The notes under the pieces: model-generated | What the model saw: the letters and a program-made list of their open reading frames with translations, nothing else | What the model was told of the DNA's origin: nothing | Databases searched by the model: none | Position numbers and translations under genes: made by a program | Shown: in pieces, positions 1-63,939 of the stretch | Position numbering within the stretch: the stretch's first letter is position 1 | Layout: each line of letters opens with the position of its first letter | Source: Macrocystis pyrifera | Taxonomy: Eukaryota > Sar > Phaeophyceae > Laminariales > Laminariaceae | Length of the DNA stretch: 64,000 nt | Reading direction: 5' to 3' | Assembly (NCBI GenBank): GCA_031763025.1 | Contig: JASSKH010000041.1 | Span: 2,232,001 to 2,296,000, forward strand

Positions 1-2176
1 ACCCACTACATCTTAAGATATGATTCTTCAGTACGTAACACAATGTGTTTGTGTGATGTGTGGACCTGGTACCCAGGGTCCCATGTCCCCAACACGTCGA
101 CATAATACGTAACCGTCACTTTTCTTTTTTCGACGTGCAAGAACCAACGTGCGACATCTCTGACATCTCTCGCTCGGCTGATATGTTTAGTCTCGACCGA
201 TGCGCGAATAGCAGAAGGGGGAGGAGCCCGTGTTGGAGGGGGGGCTCCCGACACTGCCTGCCTCCGGTCGCACGCAGTACCCCCTGCTGCACAGCTGTGG
301 CCTAAGAGTTGGCTCCCGCCGGAGGCCGAGGGCCGGGCGGGGGGCAACCGCGCACGAAAAACTGTGATGTCGGAGATTTTTTTCGGGAAGAGCGAACGAA
401 CACGGAGTGCCGCCACCACCACCACCACCCAAATATCACCTCGGGGACGCAGTTGGGACTATTAGGGCTGCAAAGTCGCAAGTTGGAACTGCTTCCTACG
501 CCTAAGGTACCATGGATCCTTCTCGTTGCCCCTTAGGTAAAGGAAGCTACTGCTGTACTGTTTATCTATGGTAGAGGTGCTCGAATCTACAGGTAGGTGC
601 TTGATATCCCGTTGAAGATATTGATGCTGCGAGTATTGTGCTCGTGCTGGGTCGTACGTGCTCTGTCCGTAGATCTGTTTACTGTGTTTATACAAACTAG
701 TGTGCCAGGTATGGGCATCGTAGCTTGACGCCCGCGATAGGCCGTATGTGGAGAGGCAAGAGGTGTTCTGCGACAATCTACGCAGAGTCGACCAGCCTCG
801 CCTACGCCCTACTGGTACTTCCCGTGTTCGTTGGTGGATCTTGTTACTATTAATACAACATTTGTCTTCCTCATACGTATACAGGCTGTATTTCCTGCAT
901 GAGGCCATACAAAACCTGTACGGTACGAGTACGCGTAGTACGCGCGATCGAAGTATCATTGCTGTCGCACACAGCTTGCACAAATGAGTTTCGACCAAAT
1001 CCTCGATTTCACAGCTGTTGTTCGTACGTTTTGTGAAAATCGTAGTGCTCATGGCGTCTGTTGCGCTATTAATAGTATATACCTGCGGTAGACATCATAC
1101 GTTTTTGTACACGTTTCGACTGCCTGAATAAATGTCGTCGTACGTCCCTACTTCGATGAAGACCGGCGGCAGATAGTGTTACGAACGCCTCGGATCCAAC
1201 TAACTACGTGAAGGTACAGTAGTAGTATCTACATGGTTCAGGGCAGTGCTGGTGCTTTTGACGGTTGGTAAGGAACCGGTGCCACATTGCGATGACCTGA
1301 CGGCAGTAATTAAAATCTGCCAGCTTCTGCTGTTAATAATCTACGTTTCGCCAAGATATCTCGCGTGGTCTTAAAAGAGTTCCTTCCCTTGGCTACTACC
1401 TTGTACGTACTATGTAGGTATCAAAGACTGCCCCGGGATTCGTACTGTAGTATTGCACTGGCACGACGTACAAACGAGCACTCGTTGTGCGGAGTTTCCA
1501 CTACACTCTGGACGTAACTATAGGTACTGTTGCAGTATAAATACAAAGACTAAACAGTTTTTCATATTTCCGTCCAGTGTGGTATGAATGAAGGCGTCAC
1601 TGCGCTTCGGCTCACGACGGGCGTAAACACAGCTGTGGGTCAACGACGGCGGTGGTCGAATGACTTATTGTACCCATGGACGCAACCACAAATTTGTTAA
1701 GGCCGTTGGGCTACTGATAAGAGGTTAACCGATCGCCTACCAAATATAAGCCTTATAGCAACATCCAGTTCGGTCTGAAGCATCCGTGGCATCGGAAGTA
1801 GAAAGGCTCACACACATTCAAGCAGAAACGCATACCAGGTACCAGGTGAATAGCTTCGTGTAAAGAAGCACTGCTCATAACGCGTCAACGGTCGGTATTT
1901 ACTACTTGTACCAAAGTACCATACATGCATACGAACACGATACGTGGCGACGACGCCACAATTTCCCGACACACCGCATTGACTCCTGTCTGAGAGTCTT
2001 GTCTGATGACAGCCGTCACCCACGCATCCTATGCCATATCAATACCCACGTGCAAAGAGAATCTCCAGGTGAACTCACTCGCAACTCGCAACACCCACAT
2101 CGTTGTCGTCGCGCGCAGGGTAAAAGCGAGAACAGTAGTACTACAGTCGTACTTCGTATATACGTGGTGAGGTGCG
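1..2176. other. No recognisable gene
   Basis: No reading frame here resembles a known family, and none joins convincingly to the channel exon that starts at 2177. The stretch around 985-1030 is an inverted diverged copy of sequence near 5405-5450, so at least part of it is dispersed repeat. Upstream exons or the promoter of channel A could lie here, but no signal is clear enough to call. Confidence 0.4.
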
Positions 2177-22227
<20,051 letters not shown>

Positions 22228-32600: not shown

Positions 32601-33728
32601 TTTCTCTCTTTTGGTGTGTCAAGAAGGGTTCGGAATTTGCCCACAGCCCACGCTAGCAACGAAGACCAACTCAATTACTTTAAGATTCTTAGCAATTATA
32701 ATTCCTTCAAGAATGGACAACACTTTTGCTACAGTAGTAGTAGTGCGATATTTGTAGGCTCAGAGAGGGATGGTTGAGACACCGCTGTTGATACTGCCGT
32801 AGGGGAGGATGCTCGATTCGAGTCGGACTGTAGCACTATTGTCTGTCAACCCGTACGATACGTTGTCGGAGGGAGAGAACAATACGTCGAGCTTGTGGAA
32901 ATTAATGGGATCTTGTCGTGGTCCATCTTCTTTCTCGTAGTTAACCCCTTTGGTACCGAAGTCCCGTTTTGGGGACAAATCACTTGGAATTAGAATGGTT
33001 TGTCCCCAAATCGGGACTGCGGTACCAAAGGGGTTAACCGCGGTTTTTGGGCGCGACGATTCGGTTCGAGCATTCCGTCCAATTCCGCTCTCGTCCCAAC
33101 AAAATATTTCCGCGACTGTTTTAGTTCACTACTGTAGTTAACCCTTTCTGCACCGCGGTACCGTTTTCCCTTCTAGGGATAAAGCAGTCTAATTCCAAGT
33201 ACTTTGTCCCCGAAACGGGACTGCAGTCCTAGAAGCCGCGAACCGCCATCATCGTGCTGATTGATCACCGTATATACACATACACCGCTAGACTGTCGTC
33301 GAGAGTCTGCCTGCTGTATGTTCTAAACACACACACATGTATTTCCAAAAGTCCAACCCGTTTTTTTTGCTTTGTTGGTTCGCTCGCTTCGTTCGTTTGT
33401 CTGCCTTGTTTGCTTGTGTGTTTGTGTGTTTGTTCGTTCGTTTGTCTGTTGGTTGGTTTGTTTGTTTGTTTGTTTGTTCGTCGGTTTGTTTGTTCGTTTG
33501 TTCGTTTGTTCGTCCGTTTGTTTGTTTGTTCTTTTTTCTTTCAGATGTCGAAGTTTTTCGAGCGGTACGAGGACGCGATGCCGATGAACCCGGCGGTGAT
33601 GCGCCTCACCAAGCTCGTCGTTCTGATGTCCTTCGCCGCCCACCTCGCGGTAAGGTTTAAGCTTAACCTCAACGCTTCTTGGTACTGCAAAAAAAGTCTA
33701 CCAGGTACCTGCTAAACACAAAAAGACC

Positions 33729-34539: not shown

Positions 34540-34612
<73 letters not shown>

Positions 34613-37478
34613 CACTATTGCTATAAGCTTGAACCGCCGGCCACCCACACACCAAATTTCACTTTCAGTGTATTTCGTGTTTTGCGTCGACAAATACCTG
34701 GTACATCAACAACAGGTACATGGCAAGCGTCTACTGGGCGTTCACGACCATGACCACCGTTGGCTACGGCGACATCACTCCAGGCGAGAAGAAAAAAGGG
34801 TTTACCATTGTCCTCATCATCACCCGTGCCTCTGCATGTAGTACCCCTTCTGCTAATAGTTATCCAATCCGGCTGTACTGTAGTAGTCCTCCGCACTATT
34901 ACCGACTGCTGTCATGATACTACTGCTTTGTATGAGGTTGAAAGCCCGGTAATTACCTGGGTTCAGGCACTGGGAACGTATTTGTAGTACTTGGAAGGCG
35001 TATCTTAGACGGAAAACCAGGGGTTTTCCAGAGGCGCACGAGCTTGGTCTCAGTCTCCGCGTGCACGAAAGGAATAAAACTGCTCTTCTTCTGTAGCTAA
35101 GCAAGCAACACACGTGAGTTCCAACGAGTACCGGCTTAATAGGCAGACCTGTCCAGGGATACAAAGTGTCCCGCAACCTTGATCTTAACAGGACCATAGT
35201 AAATGGGACCACATTTTGTTAGTGCAAAATAGGGAAATATACGGGTTTTAGTGTGTACCGTAGGTGCTGTTTACTATGGTCCTCCGCACTAGATACCACT
35301 CTGTCTCGATATATAAGTAACGTTTTGATTACGTATTAGTACACAAAAGGTCCTTGTTTTTAGAGACAAAGTGGTGCGCAGGTTGACGACGGGGCCTATA
35401 ATCGTGTCACACGTCGAACAGATAGATGATCTACAGGCAGAAAATCTACAGATAGACGATCTACAGATAGATCATCTACAGATAGACGATCTACAGATAG
35501 ATCATCTACGGATAGATCATCTACAGGCAGATCATCTACAGATAGATCATCTACAGGCGGATCATCTACAGATAGATCATCTACAGGCAGATCATCTACA
35601 GGCAGATCATCTACGGATAGATCATCTACATCTACAGATAGATCATCTTCAGGCAGATAATCTACAGATAGATCATCTACTTATAGATCATCTAGATCCT
35701 AAACCTGCTGTTCAGAGGTGCTGTGCAGGATCTGTATAGCATAGATCCAACCCAGATACCACATGTCACACCGTCCTACAGTAAGCAGATCATGCAGGAT
35801 CTGTATAGTACAGATCCCACCCCGATGTCACCAAACACGAGGTATTTGCGAAGATCTCTAACTTTAAGGTAGCTTGACAGTAGTATTAAATGTGAATGAC
35901 TTGCCCTGAAATACCCTGCGACGTAGATCATCCAGTGGGAAACGATTGACCAGTAAATATTATTGGCCTGTCCAAAGTGTTTATTTTTTTTCTTTTTCTT
36001 TCTGGTAACTATTAATAAAAGTTTATGAGTGATCAATCAACGTTGAAGCTCGTTCATGCTGCACGATGGAGGATGCCAAACACGATTTCGTAGCAATACT
36101 TATACTGCTGTGCGTCAAAAAATCGGTTTGGGATGTCGGCCTTTTTTACGCGTTTGCCTTCGTTTTCTGTTTCCTCTTCACGCCATATTTTGCGATTGAC
36201 ACGCGCTTACAAACAAAACGCTACCATACAGTATAAATTTCGAAGCAACTTCGGAGCAACTTCAAATGGTGTCTCTCCCTCCACATTCGCAATATTTTGC
36301 CACAAATTTTAGACGGCTTGCTACTGCTGTACACGGTCAGACCAAACTAGTGGGCGTACGCGTACGTACGCCCATTTACATTCTTCGTGCCTATCTGCGT
36401 CGCGCATCCGACGATGCAAAAAAAAAAAATCCGCGCGCGTTGTTTCCTTCCATGTCTTAATAACTGAGGTTTTAATCTGTTTTTCCCACCGCTCTCTGTC
36501 CGGTGTGCTGATTGTTGGGATGTGTTTGTGGATGTGTTGTTGGTGTGTTGTTGATGTGGTTGGTCGATTTGATCAATTTGATCGGCTGATTGAGCAGCCA
36601 ACAACGTGACGGAGATGATGACGGCCCTCATCAGCGAGGTGGCGGGGGACGACTCTTTTCGCGTACGTCATCGGGGCGCTGGTCAACATCGTGCTCAACC
36701 TCGATCCCGAGAACCGTCTCCGGAAGCAGAAGGTATAACGCGCACATCATACACACGATACGTGAAACTAGTAAAAGAAGAGTCGTTTGCACCGACGCGC
36801 CTAACAATACCTATACTTTTCTGCTTCTCCACCCCGCTAAAACCTATCATAGCTCACAAGAAGGCTCATCAGCCGCCTAAGAGCAGCGTGAATGCCCGGC
36901 AGTACGAGCATACGATCGAGTTTGCGCCGTCGTATATATGTGCGTCTCGTTGCATTGCAACTCGGAACATCCAGTCGTAACGCCCCCCAATCATCACGCA
37001 TCACAATGCGGGCCGATGCCGTAAGCAATATAGTCGTCAATTTTATTGTTATTATTACTAGGCTTGCCATCCGACAATCAATGCAATGTGCAGGATGAGC
37101 TTCTTCACCGTTGATCGATCAAAACATTCATTCCTCAAACAAGAAGAAATCCCCGGATACAAAGGAAACCCATCTATGCACAAGGTCTATCTATCTTCTA
37201 TGTCTACTTGCTTTTATTGTCGAGGAGTTTTCTATCTTTCCCCCGCTGAAGTAAATCCCAAGAGTTTTTAGAACAGCAGTCCCGTTTTGGTGACAAAACA
37301 CTCTAATTCCAAGTAGTTTATCCCCAAAACTGATACTGCAGTCCTAAAAGGGTGAATTAAGTAGCTCCAAACCCTTTCACCCTGAAAAAAAAAAAAATCC
37401 TGGTTGACTTGCAGAAAAAAAAAAGAAGGAAAGGGCAAAACCCGACTTAAAAAAAAACGAAAACGAAAATACAGACAC

Positions 37479-37527
<49 letters not shown>

Positions 37528-40500
37528 CGAGGCTGATATTCATTTCCAAGCATTTTCTCAAAATGCGAAAGAAAACGATCGCGCCCCAGGGCGAGCATTT
37601 TCGGCGAAATGGTTGGGGCACGTCAGTGTGCAATCAGTCTGTTTACGGGGGGCCATAGTAAATAGGACCAAAGATTGTTATTAACAATAGTAAAAAAAGG
37701 GAAATACATACCTGGTAGTTTTTTTTTTTTTCTGTGTATACCGTAGGTCCTATTTACTATGGCCCCCCGTAATAACACCTCTACCTGCCGTAGGCGACAG
37801 AGAGACACACACCGAGAGAGAGAACCAACCCCGTCGCCGCCACACCTGGACGCCCAAGGAGTACGTTCCGTTGAGTCTATCTATGTAACGGGGGGGATAC
37901 AGCGATCAACATATAGCCAAGTTCGGCGCGCGAGCATAGGGAGATACATATATACACATGTGTGTTTCGCCTATTAGAATCGGAACTCACGATGTGGGCC
38001 CAAAAAAACATTTTTATTCTCAATACTATTATTATCATTACCCCCCTATTGCGGGGGACCATAGTTAACGGGACCTACGGTACACACAAAAACCTACATA
38101 TTTCCCTATTTTTACTAACAATATTTGGTCTTGTTTACTATGGTCCCCCGTAATATAATATTGGCACATCGTATTTGGCTAATCTGGTTATTAACAGCAT
38201 GCCCCCCCCCCGGGATGATCCCGCAGTAATAGTCGCCCGTTCGCATGTATGTATGTACGCTCAATCAGCAACCATAGCTATCGATCGGAGGTACAATTTG
38301 TTTTGTTTTGTGGTTCCTTCGATCCTTTCACTTACTCTGTTGTCGTTATTGCTGTTGCTCTTTTTTTGCTGTAGGTTGAGTATCTGTCGGAGTACATGCG
38401 AGACTTCAACATGACGCAGGAGCAGAAGACGGAGATCAAGCGGCACTTCAACTTCAAGCTGAGCTTCAACTCGGTGAGTGAAATAAGGAGCCGATAGAAT
38501 CATAAATATACTACTATTGATTAACAAGCTAAAGGTTCTCCCGCTTCTAACCTCGGACACACAGATCATCCACATCACCCTAAAACATCTATATACTGAT
38601 AGATCATCTGGATCAGCTAGATCCTACCCTGTCGTTCTGAAGTGCTGCGAATAATCAGCGCGGCACCTGTTCCATGTCATTTCCTATTATTCCGTTTACT
38701 ATCTTATACGGGGGTCCATAGTTAACAGGACCAAATTTTGTTAGTAAAAATAGGTAAATATATAGGTTTTTATGTATACCATAGGTCCTGTTAACTATGT
38801 ACCCCCGTAACAGTCCAATCATACGGGTAGCTAGAATCCAACGACTTAAAACGCGGAAGGTGCTGTTGCGGGGAACCACAGTAAATAGGACCAAATATTG
38901 TTAGTAAAAACAGGTATATATATATATAGGTTTTTGTGTACACCGTAGGTCCTGTTTACTATGGTCCTCTCCGTAATATTAATCAGACACCTGAATACTC
39001 GACAAAATTACGTACGGATCACTTTTACTGTTCCCTTCGGAGTACGTATCCAACCCCAGGAAACATGTCCCAGATCGTGCAGATTGTACGCCCCCCGCCC
39101 GGCCACGTGAGCTAGATCATACAGATCATACAGATCAGAAATATATCTGCACCGATCTATCTACACCATATCCCAGTATGTAACACCCTCGCTTTTGGCG
39201 TCGTCAGCAGGACACGGGTACAACATATATGTATAGTGTATAGTGTACGGACGCCCCAAAGATCCCGCCGTTCAGGGGGGGGGAGAATGTTGTAACGATT
39301 ACCCTGGGCTGGGTAACTGATCGTTTTTTTACCCCTGTAGCTCAGTATGCAACACCCTCACATCTATCTATTACGGGGGACCGTAATAAGTAGGACCAAA
39401 TATTGTTAGTAAAAAATGGGTAATATATATAGTTCTTTGTGTGTACCGTAGGTCCTATTAACTATGCCCCCCCCGTTAATATCAACACATCATCGTCATC
39501 GATGAGTTAACCGAGGCGTGCAGTATCACACTTTTTTTTCCTTTGCTGGCCCGCACTTCTCTTTTCCTTTCGTCACCAGGGGGAGACACAATACACCGTA
39601 TGTGCAGCAGTATATCCTTGGAATACGACAGCTTCTAACAGTGACACAGCGAGGGGTGCAGGGGATGTCGGGGCTCTGAGTAGTTGACTCCTCCATCATG
39701 CCATCGGTCCATTACATGCTGCCGCTCTCTCCATCCAAGGCCGTAACACGGGAAGCTCAAGCTGGGACAAAACCTAGAGAGTAGATGACACGACGCAGTG
39801 ATCTCTAATGGGGATCTACTGCATGACAGTCGATTTTCCTGGTTGAGAACTATTACGGGGGCCCATAGTAAATAGGACCTATGGCATACATAAAAACCTA
39901 CCTATTTTTACCAACAATATTTGGTCCTATTTACTATGGTCCCCCGTTGTGATTAACCTTTCCGATGAGAACGATAGCAAGTCGAAGAAATTGGGTTTTG
40001 TAAAGAGATATACTTCCCCGAGAGGCAAAAGTTACACTGCTGCTGTGAAGAATATTATCGTTTGCAACAGCCTAAGTCCGTGAAGTGGTGGTCGAGACAC
40101 CAAAAATACATACCTGCTAATATTTTTTCTTAAAACACCGTTCGTTGGCACTCTCTATATATCGAAGATAGCAAGAAAAAATCCGAATTTGTTGGAGCGA
40201 GGCGGCCTCGGCGCTTAATAGTACCATTTCTGTTCTATATCTTCTGTTTCACGCGCCTGCCAAGGCTGAATTTTATTTTTGTTTTCGGTGGATAGACACC
40301 TATCCTCCATAAACCTATATTCCGCTAGCCTACATTCTACGTTAACATTTGACACAGAGGGAAATACTGCTCTTAACAACACAAAAACAAAAAAAATGCT
40401 AGAATCGATTATCGTCGGAAAGGTGATTCTCAACTATTACGGTGGACCATACCTGGTAGTAAATAGGACCTACTGTGTACACAAAAACCTATATGTTTCC

Positions 40501-43500
40501 CTATTTTCACTAACAATATTTGGTCCTAATTTACTATGGTCCCCGGTACTAGGAAAATATCGGCTGTTTCTTCATGTGGGCTAATATTGAGGTTCCCTAT
40601 TCTGCCGTGTGTACATACATATCCTCCTTTCAGAGGTGTGGTATCACGTTTTCTAAGAATCGTATATATATACATAACGTATGGACTCCATCACACAGCA
40701 GCGCAATAATGTGTCATGGGTGGCCTAACTGCGCCCACCCACGTTTTTTTTTGGGTACATTCCACTTGGAAAGAGTGTGGAACACTTTCTGCGGGATGTT
40801 TTTTACGTACACACGTGCGGGGGAGGGGGGTTGCCTCATTGCCCCTATACGGTTTCAATCAACTAACCACCCGTACGTATAATATAGCGCCTTGAAATTT
40901 TACTATATGGTGAGCAAGATAGTATCATTGCATTTTTGTATTGTAGTTTGAGTGTAGAGCACGACATATTGTCGCTTAAATACCCCCCGCCCCGCCGCTG
41001 ACACCTCCACTCCCGCCACCTCCCCCACCGTCACCCCTGCCCCTCTCCCTCACTCCACCCCTCCTCCCCGCACCCTCAATGGCCATACGACTACGGCCAT
41101 GCATGTTATTGAGCGCGGCCATGCATGATATTGAGTACACCCCCCCCCCCCCCCGCCCCCCCCCCTGATCGCCCCCCCCTCTCCCCTGATCGTATCACAT
41201 AGTGTGTATATGGTAATGCACTCACGAGGCGCTTCGCGCTTGGTGCAAGCAACGTCTGCCTGGTCGGTGAAAACCCGACATGCTCCGTCCCGGCATTGTA
41301 GGGATGCGAGGGTCTATGGTCATACGACTATGGCCATGCATGAGATCGAGTACATCTCTCCTATCGAGTACACCCCCCCCCCCCCCCCCCCCCTCTCCCC
41401 CTGATTGTATCACATAGTGCGTATATGGTAAGGCACTCACGAGGCAGTCACATAGTAAACCCATTGCTGTCTCTGGAAGTGGCCACACCAGAAATTAAAT
41501 CAATTAGTTGATGCTGTCATCCGCATGCAAGATAATCCGTCTCTGAAGCGGTTCCTAGTAGGTTGCAGCTAACCCTTCATGCGACTCGCCCAACACCTCA
41601 CGGCGCTTCGCGCTTGGTGCAAGCAATGTATGCCTGGTTGGTGAAAACTCGACGTGCTCCGTCCCGGCCTTGTAGGGATGCGAGGGTCTACGGTCATAAG
41701 ACTACGGTCATGCATGATAATGAGTACCCCTCCCCCCCACCTGATCCCCGCCCTCTCTTCCTCTCCCTTTTCCCTTCCCTTTACGCCGGAAAAAAAAATT
41801 GTTCCAAAACGTATTGACAGGTCTTCCCCGAGATGGAGATTTTATCAAGCCTGCCGCCCTACCTGCGTATCCCGGCCGTCCTGTACTCGTACCGAGCATC
41901 GCTGCCGCGGCTACCCCTGCTGTGTCAAATAGAGGTGTTTTATCCGGGCTTCCTCGGTCTAATGGTGAGATTTCGTATAACCTGACTACTCTATATACCT
42001 TAGTGTTGTTATTGTTGCGTTTGCATCCATCTCACAGTGTACAGCATGCACTTCAATGTTGATCACTCAAAAAACATGAACATCCCCCGAAAGAAGAAGC
42101 AGAAAAACAGCAGGGGAACCAAAACAAAAAAAAAGGAAAAACCTTTGCAAGAAGTCTAACACTCCCTTCTGTGCTTACCGCCGCTTACCCTCTATATCTG
42201 CAGTACTTCAATCCACATGTATTTATTGTCAACGCATTTTCCCCCCGATGAATTATACCAAATCGTTCAATCCCGGTCCCTCACAGCTAGCAATTGGTAA
42301 CCAGAACCCGCCCTTCCACCCCGGAGAAAACAATCAAGGAAGCTAACACGAACTTAGTGGTACCTGGTATTTAATACGTCGTACACACTGCTGTACTACG
42401 TTAGCTGAACTGACATGATTGATTGCCACCTGTTCTTACTTTTTACGCCATCTTTTCAAGCAACTGCTGTACTACTGCTGTACGTAATAATACCTTCTGA
42501 AGCGTCGTGTGACACGTAGTTGGAGCAGGTTTTTTTTTTTTACAGCCATGCGCTAACGGTTTCTAGTCCCCCTAGGATTAGGAGTACGCCCATGTTGTTT
42601 TAGCACAACGCACACAACTTGGATTTAGTTTAGTGGGGGATCAGCAGCGGTAATAAGGATCCACCGCATTCAACGTGCGTGTCAAAATGAAGCATCGCCG
42701 AGAGAGAGAGAGCGTCAGCAAACCAAAACTACGTAGTATAGGGTCGATCGCAAAAGGTACTCGCACATATGGACGCTGTATTATAGTTATTAAGCTTTTA
42801 TGTCATCAGGCTCGGCACGTATTACGGGGGTCCATAGTTAACAGGACCTATGGCATGCATAAAAACCTACATATTTACTTATTTTTACTATCAATGTTTG
42901 GTCCTATTTACTGTGGTCCCCCGTAATAGGAACGATACGATTAATTCAATTTCAAAACCTTGAATCTTACTCACATTTTGACATTCAAAATTGTTCAAAT
43001 TATTCACCGTTTCTCCTCTCTCTGTGTCTCTCTCTGTGTGTCTTTCTCTCTCCCCCCCCTCCCCCCCCCCCGCGCGCGCCCTCCCTCCCTCTCTCCCCTC
43101 CCTCCCGTCCCCCTATTCTTCCTCTCTATCTCTCCGTCCCTTTCGCGCGCCTCTCACAAACGATAACAACTTAACATACATATATCGACGGAAACGCAAT
43201 CTTCTATCTACCGACGGAAACAACGTTACCGACGAAAACAACGGCAGCTGCCCCGCTTGAAGCCGGGGGAGTACGCGAAGGGTGACGTCATAGTCTCTCC
43301 ACGCCTGGGGGCGAGAGAGATGGGCTTCGTCTTGCACGGGATTTGCGAGGGTACCTCTTCGGAATCAGGGCAAACCATACAGACCTACAGGTGTGTGTTT
43401 TTCACTTTCCGTGCGTTTCGTTCGTTCGCTCGTGGCAAAACTATGTCGGTTGACGGCACCCTCACACCATGACAGACACATCCATCAAGGACATACGTCT

Positions 43501-47899: not shown

Positions 47900-48420
47900 T
47901 CTCATCCCCCTCTCCCCCTCCCACAAAACACGCCGCCATCGAATAAACCCACACCCACGCCGACAGTAGACGGGGTGGGGTGGATAGCGACATTATGGTT
48001 GTCAAGTAGCACAGAAAAAACAGATACATACTATTTTCAATAGAAAACACATACCTGGTACATAAAACACCGACCATTCCCACCCCTCCACCAAACATGC
48101 CGTGATCGAACACCAATATGGCTCACTCACGCCGACTGCAGGGGGGGGGGATAGACAGAAATACGCTGGTAAAGGAGTACAGATGCATGTAAATTTCTCA
48201 ATAGAAAACACATATAATACCTGGTACACAAAACACCGACAATTCCCACCCCCCTCCCCAACCCCCACCCCTCATCAAACATACCGCCATCGAAAACACC
48301 AAACATGGCTCACTCACGCCGACAGCAGGGAGGGAGGGGGGGGGGGGGGGGGGAGACAGAAATACGCCGGTAAAGTAATACAATATACTGGCAACGAGAT
48401 TTTCAATTATAGGAAACAGC
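47900..48420. repeat. ~165-bp tandem repeat, three units
   Basis: Each unit contains CCCACCCC..ACCAAACAT.CCG.CATCGAA, CTCACGCCGACAG, a G run, AGACAGAAATACGC and CAATAGAAAACACATA. Two of the units carry TACCTGGTAC. Confidence 0.7.
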
Positions 48421-49560
48421 AACAAACCCGCAAAAATCGTTTGTGTGTGACATGCACTTCCAAGTATATCAGTAATAAAACGTAACCTGACACCAGGTAC
48501 TACTCGTACTGCACCAGATGCCAGCAAAACCACTGCCAGGGGGATAAAAAAAGGTGTTTCCCCTCTGAACTAAAAAAACACAGTTTAGAAAAATGAAAAA
48601 AAAAAAAAAATCTAGCACCAGAGTCTTAACTCCTCGACCTGTGGAAATCTTCTACCGGTATCAACAGACGATTTCCCTACGAGATATGACACGCGGGAAA
48701 ACACCTATTAATACTATCCTACACACTCCACGAGGAGGCACCGTTCACGTAGATTATTATCTCCGGTAAAGATTTACAATTTTTTCGCATGCCTGTGTCT
48801 CCAGCTTATTGACCACAGCTTCGCGTTCTATTTGTCGCTGCGCTTCTTCGATGACTACTAAAAATGCACCCGGTAAGATAGAGCCTACACTATCTGTTCC
48901 ACGGGTGTAACATTTTGCCTTGTTTCTATTCGAGTAGACCTAAAAAAATCATAAAAGAGTTCTGGAAAAAAGCGGAGAGAAAAAACAAAAACAAAAAAAA
49001 ACGTACCATGTATAATACCACCATACAGCGCAATCACGCCAACAAAGACGCGCGCCGTTATGTCAAGAGGTATGATACGAACAAAACAAAAAGACGATGA
49101 CGGCACAAACTCGGCAAGCTGACTCATGCAATACAGGACGCCCTGTTAACGCTTCTGCCGGCGTAATTATCCAATACCTACGCCTACCGCGGCACGGTTT
49201 GACATGCTGTAGGCTTGGGGGGAAGGGGGGGGGGGGGGGGGGGGGTATGTAGCCTCAAAAAGCTCAGCATGCTCCTTCCTGTTTCCTTTCTCCCAGAGGT
49301 ATTGGTATTCAAGCCGCTACAGGCTTGGGTAATACCCGGTACGAGCGCGACTACGCGTACTCGCGGCGGAGCTGCTACAAAAGGAGAGGGCCAGGGCCCG
49401 AAAAAAAAAACAAAAACAAAAACAAAAACATACCCTGGTAGGATCTATCCGCTTGCCTCTGCCTGCCTCTGCCTGTCTGCCTCAAAAGACAGATTTTTGT
49501 TAATCAAAATAGCACCGAAACCAAAACGAGCTACAGGGGTGGGGGGGGGGGGGGGGGGGG
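48421..49560. other. No gene recognised
   Basis: A 23-bp to 20-bp G tract lies near 49225-49243. A short frame ending LIDHSFAFYLSLRFFDDY (48803-48861) follows an acceptor-like CAG but has no partner exon. Confidence 0.4.
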
Positions 49561-52500
49561 GGGGAGAATAACGGTACCTGGTAAAGAGAGCGTCTCATTT
49601 TCACGCTTCCACCATGAGAAAACCCACAAACACCGGCAGCTTGCCATCCTGAACGTTGCCTGATTTCCCTGATTCCACAGCGATACCACGTCGTCGAAAA
49701 GACACACCCGCAGCGTTATTCCTTTCGTCTGCTTCCAGCTTCCGCGACGATGCGTTGTCGTCCAAAAGAACTGGAGAGCAGCAAGGAAATGATTCCACAA
49801 CGATACCACGTCGTCAAAAAGACACAACCGCAGCGTTTTTCCTTTCGTCTGCTTCCAGCTTCCGCGACGATGCGTTGTCGTCCAGAAGAACTGGAGAGCA
49901 GCGAGGAAAGGGGCACCATGCGAATCCACCGCCGCTGCCGCCACCGCCCACCTCCGCCGTCGCGGACGTTTCAACAACGACACCACGTCGCCGAAAAGAC
50001 ACACCCGCAGCGTTATTCCCTTCGCCTGCTTCCAGCTTCCGCGACGATGCGTTGTCGTCCAAAGAAACTGGAGAGCAGCAAGGACAAGGGCACCATGTGA
50101 ATCCACCGCCGCTACCGCCACTGCCCACCTCCGCCGTCGCGGACAAAAAACATACCCTGGTAGGATCTATCCGCTTGCCTCTGCCTGCCTCTGCCTGTCT
50201 GCCTCAAAAGACAGATTTTTTTTACTCAAAATAGCACCGAAACCAAAACGAGCTACAGGGGGGGGGGAAGAACATCGGTACCAGGTAAAGAGGGCGTCTC
50301 ATTTTCACGCTTCCACCATGAGAAAACCCACAAACACCGGCAGCTTGCCATCCTGAACTTTGCCGGATTTCCCTGATTCCACAACGATACCACGTCGCCG
50401 AAAAGACACACCCGCAGCGTTCCTTTCGTCTGCTTCCAGCTTCCGCGACGATGCGTTGTCGTCCAAAAGAACTGGAGAGCAGCGAGGAAAGGGGCACCAT
50501 GCGAATCCACCGCCGCTGCCGCCACCGCCCACCTCCGCCGTCGCGGACGTTTCGACAACGATACCACGTCGCCGAAAAGACACACCCGCAGCGTTATTCC
50601 TTTCGTCTGTTTCCAGCTTCCGCGGCGATGCGTTGTCGTCCAAAGAAACTGGAGAGCAGCAAGGAAAGGGGCATCATGCGAATCCACCGCCGCTACCGCC
50701 ACCGCCCACCTCCGCCGTCGCGGACAAAAACATACCCTGGTAGGATCTATCCGCTTGCCTCTGCCTGCCTCTGCCTGTCTGCCTCAAAAGACAGATTGTT
50801 TTTAATCAAAACAGCACCGAAACCAAAAAGAGCTACAGGGGGGGGGGGGGAAGAATATCGGTACCTGGTAAAGAGGGCGTCTCATTTTCACGCTTCCACC
50901 ATGAGAAAACCCACACACACCGGCAGCTTTCAATCCTGAACTTTGCCTGATTTCCCTGATTCCACAACGATACCACGTCGTCGAAAAGACACACCCGCAG
51001 TGTTATTCCTTTCGTCTGCTTCCAGCTTCCGCGACGATGCGTTGTCGTCCAAAAGAACTGGAGAGCAGCAAGGAAAGGGGCACCATGTGAATCCACCGCC
51101 GCTACCGCCACCGCCCACCTCCGCCGGCGCGGACGTAACGATGACGTCTCACGGGCGGCATTACCTTCGGTCGTCGCCGTTACCACAATCGCCACCTCCG
51201 CCGTCGCGGACAAAAACATACCCTGGTAGGATCTATCCGCTTGCCTCTGCCTGCCTCTGCCTGCCTGCCTCAAAAGACAGATTATTTTTAATCAAAACAG
51301 CACCGAAACCAAAAACAGCTACAGGGGGGGGGGGGGAAGAATATCGGTACCTGGTAAAGAGGGCGTCTCATTTTCACGCTTCCACCATGAGAAAACCCAC
51401 AAACACCGGCAGCTTGCCATCCTGAACGTTGCCTGATTTCCCTGATTCCACAACGATACCACGTCGTCGAAAAGACACACCCGCAGCGTTATTCCTTTCG
51501 TCTGCTTCCAGCTTCCGCGACGATGCGTTGTCGTCCAAAAGAACTGGAGAGCAGCAAGGAAATGATTCCACAACGATACCACGTCGTCAAAAAGACACAA
51601 CCGCAGCGTTTTTCCTTTCGTCTGCTTCCAGCTTCCGCGACGATGCGTTGTCGTCCAGAAGAACTGGAGAGCAGCGAGGAAAGGGGCACCATGCGAATCC
51701 ACCGCCGCTGCCGCCACCGCCCACCTCCGCCGTCGCGGACGTTTCAACAACGACACCACGTCGCCGAAAAGACACACCCGCAGCGTTATTCCCTTCGCCT
51801 GCTTCCAGCTTCCGCGACGATGCGTTGTCGTCCAAAGAAACTGGAGAGCAGCAAGGACAAGGGCACCATGTGAATCCACCGCCGCTACCGCCACTGCCCA
51901 CCTCCGCCGTCGCGGACAAAAACATACCCTGGTAGGATCTATCCGCTTGCCTCTGCCTGCCTCTGCCTGTCTGCCTCAAAAGACAGATTTTTTTTACTCA
52001 AAATAGCACCGAAACCAAAAAGAGCTACAGGGGGGGGGGAAGAATATCGGTACCTGGTAAAGAGGGCGTCTCATTTTCACGCTTCCACCATGAGAAAACC
52101 CACAAACACCGGCAGCTTGCCATCCTGAACTTTGCCAGATTTCCCTGATTCCACAACGATACCACGTCGCCGAAAAGACACACCCGCAGCATTATTCCTT
52201 TCGTCTGCTTCCAGCTTCCGCGACGATGCGTTGTCGTCCAAAAGAACTGGAGAGCAGCGAGGAAAGGGGCACCATGCGAATCCACCGCCGCTGCCGCCAC
52301 CGCCCACCTCCGCCGTCGCGGACGTTTCGACAACGATACCACGTCGCCGAAAAGATACACCCGCAGCGTTATTCCTTTCGTCTGTTTCCAGCTTCCGCGA
52401 CGATGCGTTGTCGTCCAAAGAAACTGGAGAGCAGCAAGGAAAGGGGCATCATGCGAATCCACCGCCGCTACCGCCACCGCCCACCTCCGCCGTCGCGGAC

Positions 52501-54310
52501 AAAAACATACTCTGGTAGGATCTATCCGCTTGCCCCTGCCTGCCTCTGCCTGTCTGCCTCAAAAGACAGATTATTTTTAATCAAAACAGCACCGAAACCA
52601 AAAAGAGCTACAGGGGGGGGGGGGGGGAAGAATATCGGTACCTGGTAAGAGGGCATTTCATTTTCACGCTTCCACCATGAGAAAACCCACAAACACCGGC
52701 AGCTTGCCATCCTGAACTTTGCCTGATTTCCCTGATTCCACAACGATACCACGTCGTCGAAAAGACACACCCGCAGCGTTATTCCTTTCGTCTGCTTCCA
52801 GCTTCCGCGACGATGCGTTGTCGTCCAAAGAAACTGGAGAGCAGCAACGAAAGGGGCACCATGTGAATCCACCGCCGCTACCGCCACCGCCCACCTCCGC
52901 CGTCGCGGACAAAAACATACTCTGGTAGGATCTATCCGCTTGCCTCTGCCTGCCTCTGCCTGTCCGCCTCAAAAGACAGATTTTTCTTAATCAAAACAGC
53001 ACCGAAACCAAAAAGAGCTACAGAGGGGGGAAAGTATATCGGTACCTGGTAAGAGGGCATTTCATTTTCACGCTTCAACCCTGAGAAAACCCACAAACAC
53101 CGGCAGCTTTCCATGCTAAACCTTGCCTGATTTTCCTGATTCCACAACGATACCACGTCGTCGAAAAGACACACCCGCAGTGTTATTCCTTTCGTCTGCT
53201 TCCAGCTTCCGCGACGATGCGTTGTCGTCCAAAAGAACTGGAGAGCAGCAAGGAAAGGGGCACCACGTGAATCCACCGCCGCTACCGCCACCGCCCACCT
53301 CCGCCGGCGCGGACGTAACGATGACGTCTCACGGGCGGCATTACCTTCGGTCGTCGCCGTTACCACAATCGCCACCTCCGCCGTCGCGGACAAAAACATA
53401 CCCTGGTAGGATCTATCCGCTTGCCTCTGCCTGCCTCTGCCTGCCTGCCTCAAAAGACAGATTTTTGTTAATCAAAACAGCACCGAAACCAAAAAGAGCT
53501 ACAGGGGGGGGGGGGGTACCTGGTAAAGAGGGCGTCTCATTTTCACGCTTCCACCATGAGAAAACCCACAAACACCGGCAGCTTTCAATCCTGAACTTTG
53601 CCTGATTTCCCTGATTCCACAACGATACCACGTCGTCAAAAAGACACACCCGCAGCGTTATTCCTTTCGTCTGCTTCCAGCTTCCGCGACGATGCGTTGT
53701 CGTCCAAAGAAACTGGAGAGCAGCAAGGAAAGGGGCACCATGCGAATCCACCGCCGCTACCGCCACTGCCCACCTCCGCCGTCGCGGACAAAAACATACC
53801 CTGGTAGGATCTATCCGCTTGCCTCTGCCTGCCTCTGCCTGCCTGCCTCAAAAGACAGATTATTTTTAATCAAAACAGCACCGAAACCAAAAACAGCTAC
53901 AGGGGGGGGGGGGGGAAGAATATCGGTACCTGGTAAAGAGGGCGTCTCATTTTCACGCTTCCACCATGAGAAAACCCACAAACACCGGCAGCTTTCAATC
54001 CTGAACTTTGCCTGATTTCCCTGATTCAACAACGACACCACGTCGTCGAAAAGACACACCCGCAGTGTTATTCCTTTCGCCTGCTTCCAGCTTCCGCGAC
54101 GATGCGTTGTCGTCCAAAAGAACTGGAGAGCAGCAGCAAGGAAAGGATTCAACAACGATACCACGTCGTCGAAAAGCAAACCCGCAGTTTTTTTCCTTTC
54201 GTCTGCTTCCAGCTTCCGCGACGATGCGTTGTCGTCCAAAAGAACTGGAGAGCAGCAAGGAAAGGAGCACCACGTGAATCCACCGCCGCTACCGCCACCG
54301 CCCACCTCCG
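49561..54310. repeat. Higher-order tandem satellite, family 1
   Basis: Nine units beginning TCATTTTCACGCTTCCACCA at 49595, 50299, 50882, 51368, 52071, 52658, 53062, 53537 and 53947. Unit lengths are about 704, 583, 486, 703, 587, 404, 475 and 410 bp. The 704-583 pair recurs as 703-587 with nearly identical sequence, so a block of about 1.77 kb was itself duplicated. Within a unit come a CACGTCGTCGAAAAGACACA block (once to three times), CCACCGCCGCTACCGCCACC, ATACCCTGGTAGGATCTATC, CTCTGCCTGCCTCTGCCTG and a G run before TACCTGGTA. Open frames of up to about 196 codons exist on both strands. No protein family is recognised. Confidence 0.93.
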
Positions 54311-54665
54311 CCGTCGCGGACGTAACGATGACGTCTCAGGGGCGGCATTACCTTCGGTCGTCGCCGTTACCACAATCGCCACCTCCGCCGCCGCGGACAT
54401 AACAATCGCTTTCACGGCCAGCGTAACCTACGGTCGCCGCCGCTACTGCCACCGCCTCCTCCGCCGTCGCGGACATAGCAATCGCGTTTCACGGACAGCG
54501 CAACCTGCGGTCGCCACCGCGAGCACAATCGTCAACTCCGCCGTCGCGGACATAACAATCGCGTTTCACGGAAAGCGTAACCTACGGTCATCGCCGCTAC
54601 CCGCCACCGCCACCTCCGCCGTCGCGGACATAGCAATCGCTTTTCACGGGTAGTGTTACCTAATG
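54310..54665. repeat. ~60-70-bp tandem repeat, family 2
   Basis: Units of CGCCGTCGCGGACATAACAA TCG.TTTCACGG..AGCGTAACCTACGGTCG, grown out of the last block of the family 1 unit. Confidence 0.85.
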
Positions 54666-60062: not shown

Positions 60063-60892
60063 GTGAGAGTACTATAATAGTATGTCGGTTGTTTCTTTTG
60101 GTTTTATCTTTCATGTTCTCTATGTTTTTTTATCTGGGCATTACTCGCACGCGCGTACACGTACAAAAAGTAGTTGTTTTACGTTCGAGTACAGCTACTA
60201 ATAGCGTTGTATAATACTACGTTTCGTACCGCTTTTTTTCTATCAACCTTTTGGGATTGCAGAGGGGAAGCTTATCGAACAAAATCTTTAAAAAAAAATG
60301 ACGAATACCTGACAAAGCATACCTCGTACAGCAGTACAGCACATAGGCACCAGATACCCTGATACATCAGTGGTATGATAAGTACGAGTACCAGATATCA
60401 TAGTATACTCGTATATCTTACGCATACCAGCTATGATCGTTTTCAAGAATATTACACGTTATGATGTCAGATGATATCATACGAACGTGATATTACGTAA
60501 TACTATAATATTAATAGTACTCTCAGGTATTTTAATACCTATCAGGTTCCAGTACCAGGTACAGCAGACAGAAACGTAAAACACAAAAAGCTACTCGTAC
60601 GTACGCGTACGAGTATACCTGGTAGTTGATATCTGCTAGTTAAACACCAGGTAGTCACCAGCTGACAGTTGCAGCCGCTGTAAGTGTTGCAGATTACAAT
60701 GTATATACTATGCTATATACATGAGTACAGCAGTAGGTACCTATGTACCGACTAGGTTGTACTGCTGTTCCTGCGTATTAAACTTGCCTAAATACTGAAT
60801 ACTAAATACAGCTAAGGAAGAGTCGTCATGCATTCCTGTTTTGTCTCTGATCCTGACTTCGTGCCGTCCGATTTTCCGTTATTTTTCTGCAG

Positions 60893-63650: not shown

Positions 63651-63939
63651 GAGGGTTCGCAAGTTGCAGCTGCGCTGTAGTTGTTTGGGCTGTTTCGTTT
63701 CGTTTCGTTTCTTGTTTTTTCCTGCAAGTGTGCTGTCATGCAGGTTTTTTTTTTGTGGCCTTTTTGTTTGTAACCTGACATCCCCCAGTTTTCTATGGGT
63801 GAATTTGTTGGGTACAACCAAACACGAAGAATACGATGCGAGTCTTTGCGTTTACAGTTTACCAGGTATACTCGTACGTTGTCGACAGGAGGGGGAGGTG
63901 TCGTCGTTTTTGTTTTATGAGTACCACATTCGTTAGAGC

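Follow-up and report, generated by a model that had tools for sequence, protein, structure and literature searches.

TA-bounded CCWGG words in the Macrocystis pyrifera genome as probable excision scars of a TA-specific DNA transposon

The stretch of DNA analysed here (the window) comprises 64,000 nucleotides (nt) of the brown alga Macrocystis pyrifera, positions 2,232,001-2,296,000 of contig C131, and carries the nine-base word TACCWGGTA (W is A or T) 23 times, 14 times outside one tandem satellite and nine times inside it (Table 1). TA-CCWGG-TA is very probably the heritable scar left by the excision of a TA-specific cut-and-paste DNA transposon. The 14 positions outside the satellite given in a first-pass annotation of the window are all correct, and the nine further copies come from the satellite, which that annotation had set aside. 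In 100 dinucleotide shuffles the word was expected at a mean of 0.39 copies per window, with a maximum of 3, which agrees with the excess over chance claimed earlier (about 0.5 expected) and compares with approximately 12-13 independent sites. The sites at 48052 and 48218 represent one duplicated event, as both lie in copies of one unit. The satellite spans positions 49404-54443, its nine word-bearing units are spaced 404-704 base pairs (bp) apart, and the central base is A at 50279 and T in the other eight; these nine copies are read as a single event multiplied along with the array.

Table 1. Occurrences of TACCWGGTA in the window.
Position	Word or feature	Remark
1833..1841	TACCAGGTA	followed by CCAGGTG; resembles a double scar with one end decayed
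5652..5660	TACCTGGTA	presumed scar
8062..8070	TACCAGGTA	presumed scar
8764..8772	TACCTGGTA	at a repeat edge (...GGTTGGGTTGG...); the same repeat has the word in L011:2001
33699..33707	TACCAGGTA	presumed scar
34695..34703	TACCTGGTA	within a frame reading TWYINNRYMASVYWAFTTMTTVGYGD
37709..37717	TACCTGGTA	scar in another MITE-A copy (~37646-37772), at its central TA
40450..40458	TACCTGGTA	scar carried by a copy of MITE-A (~40440-40548)
42361..42369	TACCTGGTA	presumed scar
48052..48060	TACCTGGTA	common to the neighbouring copy of its repeat unit
48218..48226	TACCTGGTA	in the second copy of the repeat unit holding the 48052 site
49575..53935	part of satellite array	nine word copies (starts 49575 to 53927)
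60553..60561	TACCAGGTA	presumed scar
60616..60624	TACCTGGTA	presumed scar
63860..63868	TACCAGGTA	presumed scar

Enrichment across the genome had been set beforehand as a test, and a search of all 537,376,219 bases (223 contigs) found 121,279 copies of TACCWGGTA compared with 2,421 of the reversed word. Rates were determined in a 200-kb sample of this genome, made up of 20 pieces (L002-L021) of 10 kb each; further pieces (L001 and L022-L036) had been chosen by words containing the scar and were left out of them. The sample holds 43 copies, while each of 15 other words of the form TA-xxWxx-TA occurs 0-12 times, the highest count (12) belonging to TAGGWCCTA, a word present in the repeat MITE-A (MITE, miniature inverted-repeat transposable element). 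Combining the sample with the window minus its satellite gives a 258.5-kb set, drawn mostly from the two contigs C131 and C193, in which 57 sites are found where an order-3 Markov model expects 1.7. The enrichment applies to the complete TA-CCWGG-TA palindrome and hardly to half-sites, as indicated by the 554 places with CCWGG (a count that takes in L001 and the satellite), of which 70 have TA on both sides, 35 on the left only, 58 on the right only, and 391 on neither. It is very unlikely that a few ordinary repeat families or satellites merely happen to carry the word. Such carriage does occur, as 9 of the 23 window copies sit in one satellite, the 48052 and 48218 sites share a unit, and contig C1 repeats word pairs within segments that are 94-99% alike. 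However, the copies as a whole do not belong to one repeat family, since 41 of the 57 sampled sites have unrelated flanks by a greedy filter, the best score among the 383 enriched non-simple 9-mers examined, and copies without the word coexist with word-bearing ones inside one repeat family.

Such empty partners were sought in the sample for 61 non-satellite sites, the query for each being its two flanks fused at a single TA. Any other match was obtained for 13 sites, and for four of these a gapless partner with a single TA was present: window 40450, window 37709, L008:9422, and L001:1122. The first three lie in MITE-A and the last in an unrelated tandem repeat. The MITE-A copy at 40437-40549 reads GGACCATA-CCTGGTA-GTAAATAGG, and the empty state is ...GGACCATAGTAAATAGG...; 58 of the 66 other hits to this site are gapless and empty at the join, which bears out the earlier description of a CCTGGTA insert after a TA. 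The site at 37709, described as an insert at a different TA of the same element, has 4 of 27 hits gapless and empty, with poorer matches. For L008:9422 the figure is 24 of 36 and for L001:1122 it is 1 of 1, and for L007:2578, also in MITE-A, it is 0 of 35, the join being blurred by local TA repeats. As MITE-A is near-palindromic, these hit numbers do not equal numbers of distinct copies. At the remaining eight matched sites the partners contain the word themselves, or the match is to a microsatellite or a repeat edge or, for L017:6060, is a single gapless 78% low-complexity one that was not counted as an empty partner. Homologous segments of the sample also differ by 29 gaps of 7 bp, six of which are exact rotations of TACCWGG and trace to three sites (L001:1122, L008:9422, and window 40450); among the other 7-bp gaps, several are the same or neighbouring scars aligned at least 1 base off, and one is CCCGGTA. 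Merging 82 hits from the two strands locates MITE-A itself at 42 places of the sample, four of which carry the insert, at two different TAs. TACCWGGTA thus arises in repeat copies as a 7-bp gain, TA becoming TA-CCWGG-TA. The scars are bounded by TA and their empty partners contain a single TA, indicating a TA target with TA duplication, the inserted element itself being unseen. The empty single-TA sites that had been proposed as a check therefore exist, here among repeat copies of one genome.

The sequence around the scars is an AT-rich palindrome. On both sides, A is found at -1 with a frequency of 0.48 (0.29 for all TAs), T at -2 with 0.39 (0.27), and A at -3 with 0.48 (0.27); such contexts are common in Tc1/mariner insertion, as in part described in PMC3878927. 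Scars are also found stacked, with 5,620 doubles TACCWGGTACCWGGTA in the genome and 0 for the reversed control, where about 1,120 would be expected if the two TAs bounding a scar were no more favoured as targets than TAs in general. Doubles with A then T at the centres number 1,409 and those with T then A 609, a ratio of 2.3, close to the 2.15-fold ratio predicted by a hand calculation from the flank frequencies, because the A(-3) preference favours a second insertion beside AGG-TA over TGG-TA. Formation of the A-then-T doubles in one event, by TA-mediated annealing, is possible but was dropped as an account because the observed ratio matches the prediction from target preference.

Since no complete element with CCWGG ends was found, we infer the transposon from its scars, and with it the enzyme, the 5-nt stagger, the element ends, and the repair route. 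The element would insert at a TA and duplicate it. On exit, the transposase would cut one strand at the end of the element and the other 5 nt inside, leaving flanks with 3' overhangs that would spell CCAGG or, less likely, CCTGG. Two CCAGG overhangs could pair at four of five positions (C:G, C:G, G:C, and G:C) around a single A/A mismatch, and filling and sealing of the gaps would yield TA-CCAGG-TA in either orientation. Each scar would offer, in its bordering TA, a good new target, so that scars stack. The central A/T ambiguity had been taken as a sign of mismatch repair, which it does not constitute by itself: TACCAGGTA and TACCTGGTA are reverse complements and form one duplex, so whether A or T is seen at the centre depends on the strand read. 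The first-pass interpretation of the word as a footprint is accordingly retained on the strength of the enrichment, the empty sites, and the independent flanks, while its argument from the central base is not upheld, and the CCWGG-ended element that it predicted was not found in 312 kb.

Relatives of the scar that are one base pair shorter provide further information on how it is made. In the sample, the 4-bp relative TACCGGTA occurs 12 times (2.75 expected) and TACCAGTA 21 times (9.0 expected), and TACCTGTA shows no excess (6, with 6.7 expected). Genome-wide there are 42,728 copies of TACCAGTA and 23,377 of TACCTGTA, both above extrapolation from the sample, and their reversed controls, too, have high counts (35,011 and 13,099). 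A surplus of TACCAGTA over TACCTGTA would be expected if the element ends read CCAGG and not CCTGG, which is only suggestive, as base composition could contribute. The excess of 4-bp relatives points to breaks subject to trimming or mismatch loss rather than to a fixed 7-bp insert. This bears on an alternative that we regard as improbable, in which some enzyme inserts a fixed unit TACCAGG at TA and no larger element ever existed. Such micro-insertion predicts the same word in both orientations, just as excision does, and would be in keeping with the failure to find a parent element. Nevertheless, TA-bounded scars like those of Sleeping Beauty explain the form of the word without a new enzyme, and other TA-bounded words with contexts of their own (see below) fit several transposons better than several micro-inserters.

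Over the 258.5-kb set, variants of the word with one mismatch exceed the order-3 Markov background by approximately 46 sites, compared with 57 exact copies. The changes most in excess are T>C, A>G, and C>T, and the variants look like the products of unselected (neutral) decay. C>T at scar position 3 was observed 12 times against 2.5 expected; at position 4, the inner C of CCWGG, there is no excess (2 against 3.6), which departs from the decay pattern. The ratio of variants to exact copies is compatible with activity sustained over a long time or with a burst at approximately 10% divergence. Presumably, most of the 121,000 words would derive from a few copies hopping over a very long time and not from one burst. 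A host motif such as a protein binding site, maintained by selection at many places, could also be palindromic and dispersed with independent flanks, as this 9-mer is. That the word is gained as a 7-bp insertion at TA in repeat copies, adjoins its own edge in the 5,620 doubles, and mutates mainly by transitions makes this origin highly improbable.

A number of results weigh against excision by a transposon. Of the 13 matched sites, 9 have no clean empty partner. The MITE-A inserts at window 37709, L007:2578, and L008:9422, three of the four, share the central TA and may stem from one ancestral insert; when the 41 other places are ranked by relatedness, these three come only 13th to 35th for one another, and the centre base is A in one and T in two, which speaks for independent insertions at a single favourable target. 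Doubles in the same orientation, obtained by subtraction, number 3,602 where independent events would give 2,018; tandem arrays may add to them, and among 50 doubles listed several share single contigs (C45 and C65). The 5-bp scar is longer than the usual Tc1/mariner overhang of 2-3 nt, according to the parts consulted of one account (PMC3878927). The parent also escaped several searches. Among 456 pairs ended by TACCWGG in 312 kb, within which several C1 loci overlap, no inverted repeats rose above the shuffled range, the best pair having 7 matches. Half-site extension found no common sequence downstream of TACCAGGTA or TACCWGG. Profile searches gave no match to DDE_3 at E 0.001 and only weak matches to Transposase_1 (E 0.18-1). 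The full element bounded by CCWGG ends and encoding a DDE transposase that the first-pass annotation had envisaged was thus not found in 312 kb or by the profile searches.

A hunt for TA-flanked inverted repeats with any ends yielded mainly MITE-A and simple repeats, and none beginning with CCWGG. Contig C1 (L022-L036) contains repeated segments, several of them 94-99% alike; the word pairs spaced 400 bp apart there (L024, L029, and L035) were considered as an element and rejected as copies of one repeated segment. The pogo-type profile DDE_1 has 43 matches in the genome, 40 of them above the cut-off and 17 at E 5.2e-19 or better, with a stop in two of the 17. The 1,500 bases downstream of the best match (L037, G000:C202:8065201-8066700) have their sole CCWGGTA near the 5' end, before the last exon, and no CCWGG-TA after the reading frame. 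Homology among the DDE_1 copies continues to the end of this piece, so the end of the element is not reached in it. Judged from this single piece of a single copy, no member of the DDE_1 family was linked to CCWGG ends. The last residues of the L037 reading frame, QADVREFFYA, we take to resemble a PCNA-binding motif. At G000:C206:2219747-2219852, the DDE_1 3' region has approximately 104 extra bases relative to L037, the size of a MITE-A copy.

The absence of the parent from 312 kb shows only that it is not abundant; few parent copies would be needed if scars built up slowly over a long time. The very large number of words and the lack of resident copies in 312 kb would also follow from programmed or tissue-wide excision of the ciliate kind, if the elements persisted in cells or life stages other than the sequenced gametophyte, which would represent the excised state. 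We consider this extremely unlikely, because decayed and satellite-multiplied copies look old and inherited, so that most events probably took place in the germ line.

Excision by a TA-specific transposon has parallels in several characterized systems, and the papers named for them are cited here from the parts consulted. Tc1/mariner elements produce overhangs of 2-3 nt, and the footprint of Sleeping Beauty is C(A/T)GTA (PMC3878927). The kelp word resembles the scars of Sleeping Beauty and Frog Prince in its TA target, TA boundaries, self-complementary terminal bases, and single central A/T (PMC3878927). It differs in having 5 nt instead of 3 and in its extreme number, and it is represented by scars alone, whereas element and enzyme are known for the other two. 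Stowaway and rice Osmar5 footprints are fragments of 1-4 bp of the terminal inverted repeats, of varied sequence, and re-insertion at an old footprint was inferred in one Triticeae lineage (PMC1925063). Like the kelp scars, these footprints are bounded by TA and, as presumed for the kelp, made of terminal fragments, and renewed insertion at the TA of an older scar is indicated in both (PMC1925063); in the kelp, in contrast, one 5-bp form dominates. The pogo-like Passer leaves footprints of 0-4 bp (PMC9976928); the resemblance here lies in the TA target and a pogo-type DDE enzyme, as the kelp genome has DDE_1 genes, unlinked to CCWGG ends. PiggyBac, with its TTAA target and seamless excision, does not fit the TA target and the 5-bp scar. 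Minos has a TA target and leaves a 4-nt scar of another sequence; by this description it is like the kelp system in its target and in a scar longer than 3 bp.

Among brown algae, Ectocarpus has 17 Mariner-Tc1 families of DNA transposons with 11,912 copies, mostly non-autonomous (PMC12477816). The main text of that survey contains neither 'footprint' nor 'excision' (PMC12477816), and in the parts consulted it does not seem to describe scars. The PlantMar family of Tc1/mariner includes plant and stramenopile elements, according to the part consulted of its description (PMC7325037), and is a candidate group for the parent element. In literature searches that covered few subscription journals, TACCTGGTA, TACCAGGTA, and TACCWGGTA were never printed as whole words in full text, and excision scars of brown algae did not appear in titles or abstract openings among the matches listed. 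The kelp scar would appear to work like that of a Tc1/mariner element; membership in the superfamily is not established, as the enzyme and the ends are unseen and the system is known here from its scars alone.

Other TA-bounded words show similar behaviour. The word TACAGCAGTA occurs 59,709 times in the genome compared with 1,062 for its reversal, is inserted at a TA between homologous sample copies in one instance (L013, ~4755), and forms doubles (L012:9274). Its flanks favour C, not A, next to the TA, and the context C-TA-G is common to TACAGCAGTA, TACWGTA, and TATTAATA. As these three differ from TACCWGGTA in target context, several TA-specific elements with different target tastes probably worked in this genome. 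Inserts of TTAATA and CTGTA at TA are also present between homologous copies (L007, L008, L012, L016, and L033), and may be regarded as further scar-like classes, TA-TTAA-TA and TA-CAG-TA.

The chances are about even that the full picture holds, namely a TA-specific element with an unusual 5-nt stagger that hopped in the germ line at low copy number for a long time and left more than 120,000 heritable scars, a number far above that of its resident copies, with at least one further element acting alike at TA-CAGCAG-TA (59,709 words). If so, the scars would record insertion and excision across the whole genome in a form that can be dated. Excision scars elsewhere are mostly too scarce and too diverse to be interpreted, whereas here one form occurs approximately every 4.4 kb, so that landing sites, exits, break repair, and span of activity could be tallied in a single genome and given dates by comparison among kelps. 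A parent with 5-nt staggered ends would also widen the known range of TA-specific transposases. Repeat annotation is not designed to detect such scars, each of which is a 7-bp insertion that in an exon would shift the reading frame. Within the window, an exon-like frame lies at positions 34560-34900, behind a long (TAC)n run, and holds the word copy at 34695. The frame includes TMTTVGYGD, which presumably resembles a K+ channel pore, and given this channel-like frame the word at 34695 may be a chance copy.

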